A stretch of 64,000 bases of DNA from Leeuwenhoekiella polynyae. GTDB taxonomy: Bacteria > Bacteroidota > Bacteroidia > Flavobacteriales > Flavobacteriaceae. Of this stretch, positions 1,019 through 36,718 are shown in pieces. Under the pieces are notes generated by a model that was not told the origin of the DNA, did no database searches, and saw only the letters and a program-made list of their open reading frames with translations. Every line of letters starts with the position of its first letter. Position 1 is the stretch's first letter. The translations under genes and the position numbers were made by a program. The stretch lies in assembly GCF_004104075.1 (NCBI RefSeq), contig NZ_QOVK01000001.1:186001-250000 (forward strand), written 5' to 3'.

Positions 1019-2077
1019 TTATTTCTTGATCAGACGAATCTCAAACAATTTGTCCCAATGTTTACCTGTGACGTAAAGCTGGTCTGTTTTGGGGTTGTAA
1101 GCGATCCCATTAAGGACTTCATTACCGGCATCTTCTATAGAATTAATTTTTTTCTTGAGCGATCTCAAATCAACAACACCTTCAATTGCACCGGTTTCTG
1201 GATTTATAATCGAAATGCTGTCAAACTGATAGCTGTTTGCATAAATTTTACCGTTAACCCATTCTAACTCGTTGTATTTAGATCGTAATTTTTTAGAATC
1301 TACCACTTGAATGAATTCTTTTTCAGCATAGGTTTTAGCATCTAGAAGCCATATTTTCTCAGTACCATCAGATTTGTAAATGGTATTGCCATCGTTGCAA
1401 AGACCCCAGCCTTCTTTACTTTTTCCATAATTGAAGGTATCGGTTTTTTCAAAAGTGTCTAAGTCGTAAACAAAACCTTGATTCTCTCTCCATGTCAATT
1501 GAATCAATCTAGAGTCTATTATTGTTAAGCCTTCGGCGAAAAAATTCTTGGCAAGATCAATGCGCTTTAGGATTTCTCCAGTTTTAAAGTCAGTTTTCAG
1601 CAAGCCAGATTTCCCGTATTCGCCTACACTTTCATATAAGGTGTCACCGTGAAATTCCAGACCTTGGGTGTAAGAAGTTTTGCTGTGTGGGTAAGTATTT
1701 ACAATTTCATAAGTGTATAAAACCGGTGCTTCTGAAGCCACAAACGTAAGCTTAGAGGAGAGAGTAGCTTGTTTACCATCTGCATAAACTTCAGCTTCCA
1801 GCATTTTTTCACCTAACTGAGTAACATTGAGAATCGCATCAATGCTGCTCAAATCTTTTTTGCGATCCAAAACCTTATCATCAAAAGAATAAACAACCGA
1901 ATCTATGGTAACATCACCCTTTGGTTTGAGGTTTATAATCACTTGATCTCCGTTTTTTAGAGTAGATTCTGGCTTGTTTAGTGTTAAAGTAAAACTTTTA
2001 CTCAAATCTTTTCCGTTGCCACAGGAGAGAATCGTAAGACTTAAGGTTAAGATAGCGAGAAGGTTATAACTGCGCAT
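1019..2077 (-). CDS. Glutaminyl-peptide cyclotransferase (glutamine cyclotransferase family) lipoprotein
   Basis: Predicted to convert N-terminal glutamine of peptides to pyroglutamate, releasing ammonia, in the periplasm or at the outer membrane. The 352-residue protein starts with a lipoprotein signal (L-S-C, Cys19). Residues about 25-118 form an extra N-terminal all-beta domain. From about residue 120 it matches the plant-type glutamine cyclotransferase beta-propeller, with TQGLEF at 137-142 and the motifs GLTII, LTWREN, GWGLCNDG, LEWVNGKIYAN and LNGIAY further on. The plant-type enzyme is a single propeller, so the leading domain is an addition. The downstream gene begins 4 bp after its stop. 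The family call is strong; the natural substrate is unknown. Confidence 0.88.
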   Translation of the reverse strand: MRSYNLLAILTLSLTILSCGNGKDLSKSFTLTLNKPESTLKNGDQVIINLKPKGDVTIDSVVYSFDDKVLDRKKDLSSIDAILNVTQLGEKMLEAEVYADGKQATLSSKLTFVASEAPVLYTYEIVNTYPHSKTSYTQGLEFHGDTLYESVGEYGKSGLLKTDFKTGEILKRIDLAKNFFAEGLTIIDSRLIQLTWRENQGFVYDLDTFEKTDTFNYGKSKEGWGLCNDGNTIYKSDGTEKIWLLDAKTYAEKEFIQVVDSKKLRSKYNELEWVNGKIYANSYQFDSISIINPETGAIEGVVDLRSLKKKINSIEDAGNEVLNGIAYNPKTDQLYVTGKHWDKLFEIRLIKK

Positions 2078-2130
2078 AAGTATGATAATTTTGCTGTCAA
2101 GTTAAATCAATAAATTCAGTTTAAAAAACG

Positions 2131-2161
2131 TTTGGTTTGCTGTTTGATTGCTGTATATTTG
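2131..2161 (+). promoter_or_regulatory. Bacteroidota-type promoter of the SRP RNA
   Basis: TTTG at 2131-2134 and TATATTTG at 2154-2161 match the -33/-7 consensus (TTTG, 19-21 bp, TAnnTTTG) with a 19 bp spacer. Transcription would start near 2166-2168, exactly where the closing stem of the SRP RNA begins. Confidence 0.7.
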
Positions 2162-2166
2162 CACCC

Positions 2167-2262
2167 GGCAAGTCCTACACAACCAGCTCCTGTCGAATTC
2201 CCCCAGGGCGGGAACGCAGCAAGGGTAGATGGTCGTAGCGGTGTGATGTAGGTAGCTTGCCT
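2167..2262 (+). ncRNA. ffs: Signal recognition particle RNA, small bacterial (4.5S) type
   Basis: This RNA binds the Ffh protein and directs membrane proteins to the translocon. The conserved apical domain is visible: CTCCTGTC on the 5' side, then GGGAACGCAGCAAGGGTAG, which holds the asymmetric and symmetric internal loops recognised by Ffh. The ends pair as one long hairpin: GGCAAG (2167-2172) with CTTGCC (2256-2261), and TCCTACAC with GTGTGATGTAGG. A run of seven T (2262-2268) follows and should act as the terminator. About 96 nt is the small form without an Alu domain. It is preceded by a promoter and sits in a gap otherwise lacking genes; the antisense reading frame over it is not a gene. 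Confidence 0.92.
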
Positions 2263-2310
2263 TTTTTTATGCCTTATATTTACGTATTTTCCCCGCTCTA
2301 AATTTAATGT

Positions 2311-3114
2311 ATGTCTCAAGTAGTCTTGATCACAGGAGCCTCTTCAGGAATAGGAAAATCAATAGCAGAGTTTTTAGTTACAAAAGGATTTACGGTTTAT
2401 GGAACCAGCCGAAGCCCTAAAGTTAGTTCAGATAATGGCGTTCAATTTTTAGCACTTGATGTTACTAAAGAGGAAACCGTTTCTGCTGCAGTTGATCAAA
2501 TTCTTAAAGCTGAAGGTCGCATTGATATTCTTATTAATAATGCCGGTAAAGGAATTACCGGCCCCTTAGAAGAAATTCCCGAAGAAGAACTCAAATCAAT
2601 TTTTGAGACCAATTATTTTGGACCGTTACGGGTGATCAAAGCTGTTCTTCCTAGGATGCGAAAGAAAAAGAACGGACTTATCATTAATGTAACTTCTATT
2701 GCCGGTTATATGGGCTTGCCGTATCGCAGTGCCTATTCTGCCACAAAAGGAGCTTTAGGTTTAACAACCGAAGCTTTGCGAATGGAATTGAAAGAGTTCA
2801 ATATAAAACTGACTAATGTAGCGCCCGGTGATTTTGCAACAAATATCGCTTCGGGTCGCTATCACGCTCCTTTATTAGAAGACTCACCGTATGCTAAAAA
2901 TTATGGAAAGTCTCTCTCTTTGATGGATGAGCATGTAGATCACGGGGAAGATCCTCAAAAAATGGGAGAAGCTGTTTATGCAATCATCAATACTAAAGAG
3001 CCTGAAGTGCATTATAAAGTAGGTGCTTTTATGCAGAAAATCTCTGTTTTTCTAAAAGGAGTTCTTCCAGGCAAAATGTATGAACGTTTGTTGCTAAATC
3101 ATTATAAATTATAG
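2311..3114 (+). CDS. SDR family NAD(P)-dependent oxidoreductase
   Basis: A classical short-chain dehydrogenase of 267 residues in the cytosol. The Rossmann motif TGASSGIG is at residues 8-15, NNAG at 76-79, and the catalytic triad is Ser129, Tyr142 and Lys146 (Y-x3-K). The tail after residue 190 looks like that of the broad-specificity, retinol-dehydrogenase-like subgroup, so the substrate cannot be named. The ATG at 2311 fits the start of the first beta-strand. It lies 42 bp after the T-run of the SRP RNA, so it either has its own promoter or is read through. The next gene is 121 bp downstream and probably separate. Confidence 0.85.
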   Translation: MSQVVLITGASSGIGKSIAEFLVTKGFTVYGTSRSPKVSSDNGVQFLALDVTKEETVSAAVDQILKAEGRIDILINNAGKGITGPLEEIPEEELKSIFETNYFGPLRVIKAVLPRMRKKKNGLIINVTSIAGYMGLPYRSAYSATKGALGLTTEALRMELKEFNIKLTNVAPGDFATNIASGRYHAPLLEDSPYAKNYGKSLSLMDEHVDHGEDPQKMGEAVYAIINTKEPEVHYKVGAFMQKISVFLKGVLPGKMYERLLLNHYKL

Positions 3115-3235
3115 TATTTGAGTGATTTTAGTGTAAATACAACACTTAAATTGTTTTAAATGCTATCTTCTTAAATATTGACGATTATATTGCTTAATTT
3201 TGAGATTCAATTTTTTGATAATCTAAATTCTTCAC

Positions 3236-3892
3236 ATGAAATTTTTTATTGATACAGCAAATCTAGACCAGATTAAAGAAGCTCAGGAACTAGGAGTTCT
3301 TGACGGTGTAACTACAAATCCATCTTTGATGCATAAAGAGGGCATCACCGGAAGAGAAAATATTTTAAAACATTACGTAGATATTTGCAACCTTGTAGAT
3401 GGTGATGTAAGTGCAGAGGTAATATCAACAGATTTTGATGGTATGGTTAAAGAAGGTGAGGAGCTTGCTGCACTTCACGATCAAATCGTTGTAAAAATAC
3501 CTATGATTAAAGATGGTGTTAAAGCGTTAAAATATTTTAGCGATAAAGGTATTAGAACAAATTGTACATTAATATTTTCTGTGGGGCAGGCTTTATTAGC
3601 AGCAAAAGCTGGAGCTTCTTATGTTTCTCCATTCTTAGGTCGTCTTGACGATATCTCTACAGATGGTTTACAGCTTATAGCAGATATCCGTTTAGTCTTT
3701 GATAACTATGCTTTTGAAACTGAAATCTTAGCTGCATCTATACGTCACACTATGCACGTTATTGACTGTGCTAAATTAGGTTCTGATGTTATGACAGGAC
3801 CATTAAGTTCTATTGAAGGTTTATTAAAACACCCACTAACAGATATCGGTTTAGAAAAATTCTTAGCAGATTACAATGCAGGTAACAGTTAA
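3236..3892 (+). CDS. fsa: Fructose-6-phosphate aldolase (TalC/FSA-type transaldolase family)
   Basis: Small transaldolase of 218 residues, the length of the FSA/TalC subfamily rather than the roughly 320 residues of classical transaldolase. Residues 1-10 (FFIDTANL) form the first barrel strand, VTTNPS is at 25-30, and the Schiff-base lysine is K87 in VVKIPM. Then follow TNCTLIFS and SPFLGRLDD. It should cleave or form the C3-C4 bond of fructose 6-phosphate or carry out transaldol transfer in the pentose phosphate pathway; the two activities cannot be told apart by eye. A good terminator follows, so it is likely a single-gene unit. Confidence 0.88.
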   Translation: MKFFIDTANLDQIKEAQELGVLDGVTTNPSLMHKEGITGRENILKHYVDICNLVDGDVSAEVISTDFDGMVKEGEELAALHDQIVVKIPMIKDGVKALKYFSDKGIRTNCTLIFSVGQALLAAKAGASYVSPFLGRLDDISTDGLQLIADIRLVFDNYAFETEILAASIRHTMHVIDCAKLGSDVMTGPLSSIEGLLKHPLTDIGLEKFLADYNAGNS

Positions 3893-34816: not shown

Positions 34817-36718
34817 TTATAGATTAATATTTTGACCTTTAGGATAACGCACTTCGTACGAGAAATTTTTAGTAACCGAAGCTTTTGGAGCCAGTTCTAG
34901 TGTCCATTTTAGGATACCGGTTTTTTCATCATAGGCAGCATCTGAGGTTTCCTGATCAGAAACTTTAATGTCCTTGTTTTGAGAAACCGGAATACGATCT
35001 TCTAAAACCAAATTAACCGCTGAGCTTTTAGTATTTCGAATTGAAATTTCATAAGCTTTTGCTACGACTCGGGTTCCGCCTAAGAACGATTTGCTTTTAA
35101 AGTTATCTTTTTTCTCGCGTTTAACAATAATGTTGGGGTCAATACCTAGAGAGATTTCTAAGCTGTCTGTAGTCGCCAGCGGACTAATAGCTGTCTTGCC
35201 TGCGTAGCTTCCTTCAAAATAAATATTGGCTTCACCTTGCAGTAAATCATAGCGTTCCCAGTCTGTAACCGTGGCGGTGAGAAATACATTTTCATTAAGC
35301 TCCGGTGCAGCATAATGCTGATAGCTTGCGGGTAAGACAAACTTGTCAATCTCAATGGTAGTGATGTCTGCATTTGAAACAATCGTATAGCGTTTTTTAA
35401 TCTCAAAACGGGTATTGGTAAGACTTTCTTCTTTGGCTTCAACATTCTCGTTGTAAGATTCTGAGTTAATAGTAACTCCAGCAACTTTTCCTGCTAAAGC
35501 GCCCACTACAGATCTTTTTTCTTGTGTTCCATAACCTACCACTACAACTTCGTCTAACGACTCGTTGTTAGATTCCATTTGAACATTCATCATAGAGCCG
35601 TGAATGGGTATAGATTCAGTATTAAAACCTACATAAGAATAGTGTAACTCATTCCCGCCATTACTGTTTATTGAAAGGCGGTATTTACCATCAAAATCTG
35701 TCGTCGTACCATTTGAAGAGCCGGCTTGTGCGACATTTGCACCCGGTAATGGAGCGCCAGAATCATCTGTTACAATACCGGAAACACTTCTAATAGTAGG
35801 ATTGTATTTATAATTTGTACGGTTTACAGCACTGGTTTTTCTATAATAACCGTTTACAAAATTGAGATATTTAGGTTGCAAGTCTGGTTTAAAATTATTG
35901 GTGTTGGGATCTCCGGTAGAGAGAACCAACTTCACATTGTCCCAATCTATGCCGCTTTGTTGATACACATTTGCTTTATAGTTGAGTTCAATAGGGCTCG
36001 CAGTGCTTTCTGCGCGGATATCATATAGCGGAAACCATCCTGCATTTTGAATGATATAAGATAACTCCAGGTTGAGGCTTGTAGCACGATCGCTTTGCAG
36101 TTTTACAGTGATTTCGCCGCGCATTTCTTTTCGGGAATCATCAAGATTATTCATTTGCTGCCGGTAATCGTTGATCTTGCGATCTAATTCTTGCATATCC
36201 CGCTTTTGCTTGTAAATGATGTTTTGAATTTCAGTACTCCGCTGGCGATAATAGGCACTTATCTGCTTTACTTTTTCTAAAGAAAGGTCTGTATTATCAC
36301 TATTTATACGTTGATTTTCAGTAAGTAGTTTGAGTTCGCGCTCATAGCCTTCTATAGTATTTTGTATGGAATTCTTCTCATATAGTAGTTGGTCTAAATT
36401 TGTTTTTAGACTTTCATATTCAGCAGAAACTGTTTTCTTATCTAGATAGTCTAAATTGAATGCAATGGAAAGAATACTAGCATCATCAAGCCCTCGTAAC
36501 TGAATACTGTTTTCTAAAATATCTGGCGAAAGATTGTCAAAAACCAATTCGTTAACACCAGATTTTACAGTTACAGATGAAGAACGCTCTATGGTAGCCC
36601 CTTGTAGATAGATCGTTACCTTTTCAATTTTTGAATTTTGAGCAAGAGGTTTTTCTGAAGCTATCAAATTTGGATTGCTTAGAAACAGGCAGAATAGGAG
36701 AAGAACTAGAATTCGCAT
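34817..36718 (-). CDS. MuiA/DUF4139 family protein with inserted CarboxypepD_reg and TonB-plug-like segment
   Basis: A 633-residue exported protein; the ATG at 36718 begins a signal peptide (1-20), while the longer frame upstream runs into a repeat and is not coding. Order: DUF4140-like N-terminus (about 30-95), long coiled coil (95-200), DUF4139 beta domain from 215. That last domain is interrupted at about 310-383 by a carboxypeptidase-regulatory-like fold (VSGIVTDDSGAPLPGANV, DFDGKYRL, SYVGF). At 388-408 there is a segment like the start of a SusC plug (LDEVVVVGYGTQEKR). DUF4139 resumes after about 430. Function unknown; the mosaic is the notable point. Its stop lies 8 bp from the HAD gene, likely one transcript. 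Confidence 0.82.
   Translation of the reverse strand: MRILVLLLFCLFLSNPNLIASEKPLAQNSKIEKVTIYLQGATIERSSSVTVKSGVNELVFDNLSPDILENSIQLRGLDDASILSIAFNLDYLDKKTVSAEYESLKTNLDQLLYEKNSIQNTIEGYERELKLLTENQRINSDNTDLSLEKVKQISAYYRQRSTEIQNIIYKQKRDMQELDRKINDYRQQMNNLDDSRKEMRGEITVKLQSDRATSLNLELSYIIQNAGWFPLYDIRAESTASPIELNYKANVYQQSGIDWDNVKLVLSTGDPNTNNFKPDLQPKYLNFVNGYYRKTSAVNRTNYKYNPTIRSVSGIVTDDSGAPLPGANVAQAGSSNGTTTDFDGKYRLSINSNGGNELHYSYVGFNTESIPIHGSMMNVQMESNNESLDEVVVVGYGTQEKRSVVGALAGKVAGVTINSESYNENVEAKEESLTNTRFEIKKRYTIVSNADITTIEIDKFVLPASYQHYAAPELNENVFLTATVTDWERYDLLQGEANIYFEGSYAGKTAISPLATTDSLEISLGIDPNIIVKREKKDNFKSKSFLGGTRVVAKAYEISIRNTKSSAVNLVLEDRIPVSQNKDIKVSDQETSDAAYDEKTGILKWTLELAPKASVTKNFSYEVRYPKGQNINL

Follow-up and report, generated by a model that had tools for sequence, protein, structure and literature searches.

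What is the N-terminus of an outer-membrane receptor doing in the middle of a protein of another family? The question is raised by a gene on the minus strand (36718 to 34817) of a 64,000-nucleotide stretch of Leeuwenhoekiella polynyae DNA, hereafter the window, which encodes a protein of 633 aa. An earlier note on this DNA had described the product as a MuiA/DUF4139 protein split by a SusC-like segment, and Pfam and NCBIfam profiles agree with that description. Judged by score, the protein is a member of the MuiA/DUF4140-DUF4139 family, with 292.9 bits against the NCBIfam MuiA model TIGR02231 (cut-off 112.6), 189.6 bits against PF13598 (DUF4139; cut-off 31.8) and 68.3 bits against PF13600 (DUF4140; cut-off 27). 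A signal-like start, read by eye, suggests that it is exported. Its nearest relatives in named records belong to Leeuwenhoekiella (5 of 11 loci). From the N-terminus onwards, the following features can be recognized.

36653..36718, minus strand: N-terminal signal-like segment, residues 1-22 (read from the sequence; AF2 helix 2-13)
36323..36619, minus strand: DUF4140 N-terminal domain, residues 34-132 (Pfam PF13600, 68.3 bits)
36134..36424, minus strand: long helical hairpin, residues 99-195 (AF2 helices 99-134 and 147-195)
35870..36070, minus strand: first half of DUF4139, residues 217-283 (PF13598 at 217-627 with a large insertion; boundary from the core HMM)
35567..35791, minus strand: NTE or CarbopepD_reg_2 domain, residues 310-384 (Pfam PF13715, 60.9 bits, profile 312-393; TIGR04056; SusC-built NTE HMM, 83 bits; PDB 6ytc, 8aa4, 5t3r, 6sli)
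35528..35557, minus strand: putative Ton-box motif LDEVVVVGYG, residues 388-397 (same or close motif in 13 SusC-like proteins of the same genome; Ton box of Bt1763 VDEVVV in the excerpted text of PMC7782687)
35468..35500, minus strand: plug remnant ALAGKVAGVTI, residues 407-417 (SusC LxGKVAGV motif, 23 bits; SusC-built plug HMM positions 15-48, weak, 12 bits)
34838..35425, minus strand: second half of DUF4139, residues 432-627 (Pfam PF13598; core HMM)

The DUF4139 domain is thus interrupted by about 100 extra residues: core positions 300 and 431 enclose 130 residues, whereas insert-free homologues have 23-49 there. In the AF2 model of the whole protein the core is of moderate confidence (mean pLDDT 65.6) and residues 274-433 fall below 50; the insert modeled alone reaches a pLDDT of 32.8, probably because just five similar insert sequences served as input. 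A Foldseek search of the whole-protein model against the PDB returned no match at E<=0.001, and therefore no functional hint was taken from the core.

By profile and motif, the insert (residues ~310-417) is a SusC-type receptor N-terminus made up of the NTE (CarbopepD_reg_2), the LDEVVVVGYG motif and the plug remnant ALAGKVAGVTI. The SusC/RagA model TIGR04056 aligns with residues 311-409 over positions 2-99 of 981 (113.8 bits, E 8e-33), which falls far short of the cut-off of 368 for a whole SusC, and the DUF4139 domain resumes at about residue 432 with no barrel after the insert, as the note had stated. The carboxypeptidase-regulatory fold proposed there for about 310-383 corresponds to CarbopepD_reg_2 at 312-393 (Pfam), and the notion of a mosaic of receptor pieces within another protein, in one gene and with no barrel, is borne out. 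What had been called a TonB-plug-like start at 388-402 is a receptor piece as well, but the motif at 388-397 would be the Ton box, which stands ahead of the plug, and the short plug remnant comes after it. The protein has the NTE-then-Ton-box succession of SusC/RagA receptors, and Pfam yields no PF07715 (Plug) match in it, nor is a complete plug present; the verdict "too short to be a plug" therefore suits this protein but not the many relatives with a recognizable plug. The resemblance is not due to chance, because at 64 other places in the genome there is a match to the middle part alone (29-49% identity, inside residues 251-431), and this part is also matched, with E-values from 4e-17 to 2e-9, by five sequences of solved structure, which are SusC/RagA chains or NTE domains (6ytc being one of the latter). 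The host genome has 79 matches to the Plug family. In 13 of its SusC-like N-termini the NTE is followed by LDEVVVVGYG or a close variant (GYG in 11 of 13), then, about 30 residues further on, by an LxGKVAGV-like motif and by a plug core that ends in NGVVLITTK or close to it. Among the matches listed in the openly licensed PMC literature there is no description of receptor pieces in MuiA/DUF4139 proteins.

The distribution of the insert was surveyed at three depths: 13 genomes of the genus (E<=1e-40), 397 of the family (E<=1e-28) and 395 of the phylum, the last with the DUF4139 model as query. The gene was present in eight of the 13 genus genomes and not found in the other five at that threshold; the family survey gave matches in 94 of 397 genomes, and the phylum survey DUF4139 in 86 of 395 (90 proteins, one copy in 82 of the 86). 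Since its query carried the insert, the family survey favors insert-bearing proteins, and the phylum survey provides the fairer count. From 193 complete homologues, 188 were left after removal of identical C-terminal parts, one of them proteobacterial (L048); the split or partial L074, L100 and L211 were excluded from the counts. Loops were classified with HMMs built solely from the 13 SusCs of the window's genome, with the box defined by a strict pattern. On this basis 106 of the 188 loops contain an NTE, and 52 match the plug over 60 positions. The NTE is accompanied by box and plug in 43 loops, which thus have all three pieces without a barrel, by the box in 32, by the box and a plug fragment in 16 and by the plug in two, and is alone in 13. 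Loops without an NTE comprise box alone (10), box and plug (2), box and fragment (1), plug alone (5), fragment alone (3) and none of the pieces (61); weaker versions of the box occur in most of the 13 "NTE alone" loops and in some of these 61. Five of the seven plug-without-NTE proteins have no box.

A scan of the whole homologous proteins gave 106 NTE and 58 plug domains, every one inside this loop and none outside it, which indicates that the insert is not accidental: the pieces recur in one loop across 188 homologues. Pfam Plug scores above its cut-off inside DUF4139 in nine of ten proteins chosen from the 52 plug carriers (L049 is below), and relatives such as L028, L058 and L140 have a complete plug. 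In loops inspected by eye only receptor N-terminal pieces, and no barrel strands, were seen. The NTE is found in 61 of 71 family genera with a classified DUF4139 protein, most of which come from the survey with the insert-bearing query, and also in families and classes other than the host's. The earlier note had reasoned that insertion at random positions in few strains would point to accidental recombination; the NTE is instead widespread and all 106 matches lie in one loop. Of the 90 proteins sampled across the phylum, 29 have an NTE, eight a plug and 41 at least one piece, leaving 49 with none. Two Bacteroidota plasmid copies were encountered, one from Persicobacter with an NTE and LEEVVVVGYG and one from Aureibacter with neither. 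The MuiA family at large, including MuiA of Pseudomonas aeruginosa, shares with the window protein the same N- and C-terminal core in the same order, but six proteobacterial members (Leminorella, Pseudomonas, Ruegeria, Comamonas, Bosea, Tritonibacter) have a plain loop without NTE or plug match and without a clear Ton box by eye, though Leminorella has SDYVVTD. Excerpts of PMC10418997 and PMC7603352 link P. aeruginosa MuiA to swarming and biofilm, a link that does not yet account for the graft.

The short motifs can be followed beyond the domains. With a SusC-built Ton-box matrix, 102 of the 106 NTE carriers score at least 8 bits (8.07 expected by shuffling). Among the 75 loops without NTE or plug, 19 do so, versus 1.04 after shuffling and 1.16 elsewhere in the same proteins, and 13 score at least 10 bits (0.31 and 0.29, respectively); several families are represented, related rows not being independent. 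The longer form LxEVVVxGY occurs in 78 of the 106 NTE loops and in seven of the 75, five of those from one family. An LxGKVAGV-type motif of at least 12 bits, scored with a matrix built from 10 of the 13 SusCs, is found in 34 of the 61 plug-free NTE loops (0.56 shuffled) and in six of the 75 (0.22 shuffled).

For the Ton box itself the point of reference is the SusC protein Bt1763; in the excerpted text of PMC7782687 its Ton box is given as VDEVVV and follows the NTE (Pfam 13715). The same excerpts report that its deletion or mutation causes growth defects on levan like those of a SusD deletion, and that by NMR it is unstructured and lies outside the seven-stranded NTE. Deletion of the NTE abolished growth, a worse effect than loss of the Ton box; the authors propose that the NTE confers specificity for TonB paralogues and suggest a non-transport role as well. 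Could the insert rather be a structural or adhesive Ig-like module, whose LDEVVV tail is the usual end of the domain in Bacteroidota and binds no TonB? The CarbopepD_reg_2 profile of Pfam does extend through LDEVVV. Moreover, of 12 other NTE-type proteins of the same genome shorter than 700 aa, which are non-receptors by length only, four have tails of at least 8 bits for the Ton box (LEEVVVKD in L245, LDPVVITA in L217, LGMVVVGY in L218 and LDEVRLTS in L254) and seven of at least 7 bits; with four of 12 control tails box-like, such a tail is by itself weak evidence for TonB. We nevertheless regard the Ig-like module as unlikely, since the SusC box is disordered and outside the NTE fold (PMC7782687, as excerpted), DUF4139 loops show box motifs even where no NTE is present, the plug motif is retained too, and L218 alone among the 12 controls has a tail resembling the LxEVVVxGY that most NTE loops share. 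At the level of motifs, it is the LxEVVVxGY form, the retained plug or plug motif and the boxes without NTE that distinguish the DUF4139 loops from the controls.

The history of the insert was traced on a loop-free tree of the core with 187 rows (one of the 188 was omitted for its short core). The NTE requires 11 changes on this tree, compared to a mean of 61 for shuffled states (minimum 51), and the plug 14, compared to 45.7 (minimum 38); both states are heritable with the core. Relatives adjoining the window's genus (L028, L034, L035, L058) carry NTE, box and plug, and the window's lineage would therefore, most simply, have lost its plug. Plugs without NTE or box (L140, L101, L133, L156, L190) lie elsewhere on the tree, a scatter that suggests repeated capture. 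"Box kept after NTE loss" was considered for L104 and L105 and set aside, as they fall inside an NTE clade on the 187-row tree and outside it on a 64-row tree; L181, inside a small NTE clade, is a better example. Recent gene conversion from the genome's own SusCs was likewise rejected: besides itself, the insert matches only seven short DNA pieces, 75-88% identical, and has no long genomic match.

Within the genus (pooled NG86, 21 pairs from 7 sequences), omega is 0.05 and 0.03 for the core halves, 0.14 for the NTE, 0.12 for the box and 0.36 for the remnant, values that are rough because dS, at 1.0-2.6, is near saturation. The insert thus evolves faster than the core, and both NTE and box bear signs of purifying selection. 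L010, which contains a stop, was excluded from this test. The DUF4139 gene is broken by a stop or split in L010/L044 (Leeuwenhoekiella marinoflava), L074 and L100, and it may accordingly be dispensable in some lineages.

These data bear on a second alternative, that a tolerant loop has been seeded repeatedly by receptor genes, of which there are dozens of copies per genome, and that the pieces are mostly neutral, decaying passengers. The widely varying contents of the loop, for which the tree requires about 11 changes in the NTE and 14 in the plug, the plug-only loops such as L140 and L101, the rate of the insert relative to the core and the 49 of 90 proteins with no piece are all compatible with it, as is the altered motif order of L161 and L163, where an LxGKVAGV-like motif precedes a Ton-box-like one, opposite to SusC. 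(In L126, box-like words stand on both sides of an LxGKVAGV-like motif.) Passengers would not, however, be expected to show the signs of purifying selection seen for NTE and box, nor box and LxGKVAGV motifs above chance where other pieces are absent, nor receptor N-terminal pieces and no barrel strands in the loops inspected; in the window's lineage, furthermore, the insert has been inherited with the core without recent copying. Neutral capture is in our judgment possible but doubtful. From profiles and tree together, the insert-bearing form of the MuiA/DUF4139 protein is real, widespread and, in the window's lineage, inherited with its core; its function is predicted only.

The likeliest single role, which we hold tentatively and at somewhat less than an even chance, is that of a docking site, at which the loop would bind TonB or some protein that partners receptor N-termini. 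We infer a course that includes export, plug loss, TonB binding, and force coupling or competition. The periplasm-facing front end of a SusC-type receptor (NTE, Ton box and plug) would have entered one loop of an exported MuiA/DUF4139 protein, and the window's lineage would later have shed most of the plug, keeping the NTE, the Ton box and the short plug motif. The TonB C-terminal domain would engage the loop by strand addition to the Ton box, and the NTE would perhaps select among the genome's TonBs (six TonB_C matches, one with a stop). In this way the DUF4139 protein could be coupled to TonB binding or pulling; alternatively, it could compete with the many receptors for TonB. Excerpts of PMC11658791 and PMC5413942 describe how the C-terminal domain of TonB takes up the Ton box as a parallel strand, in a contact that can hold under forces sufficient for partial unfolding of the plug. 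Colicins that depend on TonB, such as colicin M, are non-receptor proteins whose Ton box binds TonB (PMC11658791, as excerpted); they are unrelated and enter from outside, whereas the DUF4139 protein would be resident. Docking is favored because strand addition to Ton boxes is known and the Ton boxes of these non-receptor proteins work. SusC/RagA receptors (TIGR04056) have a homologous NTE and Ton box and, as do many DUF4139 relatives, a plug, in the same order; they have a barrel, whereas the DUF4139 module is an internal insert without one and, in the window copy, without most of the plug.

Counted against docking are the 49 phylum-sample proteins without any piece, the lack of a box in most plug-only forms, the box-like tails of four of the 12 controls, the faster evolution of the insert relative to the core (with dS near saturation), the failure to find the gene in five of 13 genus genomes at E<=1e-40, the stop in one copy, and a gene neighborhood in which no TonB or SusCD genes were recognized. 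TonB is regarded as a motor for outer-membrane receptors and for the bacteriocins that hijack them. A broader proposition, which on present sequence data we would offer as speculative and rather improbable, is that Bacteroidota have resident non-receptor TonB clients, DUF4139 proteins wired to the motor via a borrowed receptor front end, which would let an exported non-transporter read out, or be acted on by, the state or force of the motor. If this is true, Bacteroidota couple the TonB motor to something besides receptors, and TonB may have clients that are not receptors. The DUF4139 loop also offers a barrel-free setting for probing the role of the SusC NTE, left open in the excerpted text of PMC7782687.

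A third alternative is that the loop mimics a receptor and is recognized not by TonB but by some other factor that handles the N-termini of receptors, such as one involved in SusC assembly, so that the protein would monitor or regulate receptor biogenesis. The more severe effect of NTE deletion in Bt1763 and the suggested non-transport role (PMC7782687, as excerpted) fit this idea, and the plug-only loops, together with an M56-like peptidase that carries half a plug, suggest that plug pieces can be useful alone. We consider it quite improbable, as there is no known partner and no assembly factor was recognized in the gene neighborhood. Nor was a link to a TonB-dependent system, which the earlier note had suggested testing, seen there: no SusC, SusD or TonB was recognized by eye in 22 neighbor clusters, in which flanks were often only 1.5-4 kb. 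The neighbors shared with the window look like housekeeping genes, which we take to encode a DCC-type protein (62 of 193 loci), MutS2 (40), a dicarboxylate symporter (25) and chorismate synthase (16). No box-only or plug-only protein shares the MutS2 or DCC neighbor, and the orthology of these proteins therefore rests on the tree.

Several minor observations were made along the way. L214 (G000 contig 4, about 1421-3325, minus strand) encodes a 635 aa protein that ends in the second half of a plug (ALFIIDGEEVDEYELKNINPDDIESIDIIKG...GAILITTKK) and which we take, from its sequence, to be an M56-like membrane metallopeptidase. As in the DUF4139 loops, a plug piece is here attached to a non-receptor protein, but this one is a membrane peptidase with only the second half of the plug and with no NTE or box seen. 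L218, one of the control proteins, is a minus-strand ORF of 235 aa; several cysteines lie close to its start, and it combines an NTE-type domain with a receptor-like GMVVVGYVVQKKR tail. At L216 (838-844) a SusC-like gene lies in two frames (145 and 929 aa), split just past the Ton box where seven A stand in a row; the split may be due to a sequencing error, to breakage of the gene or to slippage. Finally, 58 records of a phage collection match the window protein, and the five listed (H11-H15, unannotated human fecal "Bacteriophage sp.") match only about residues 308-438; they may be receptor genes of Bacteroidota that were binned as phage, or else phage NTE-type domains.
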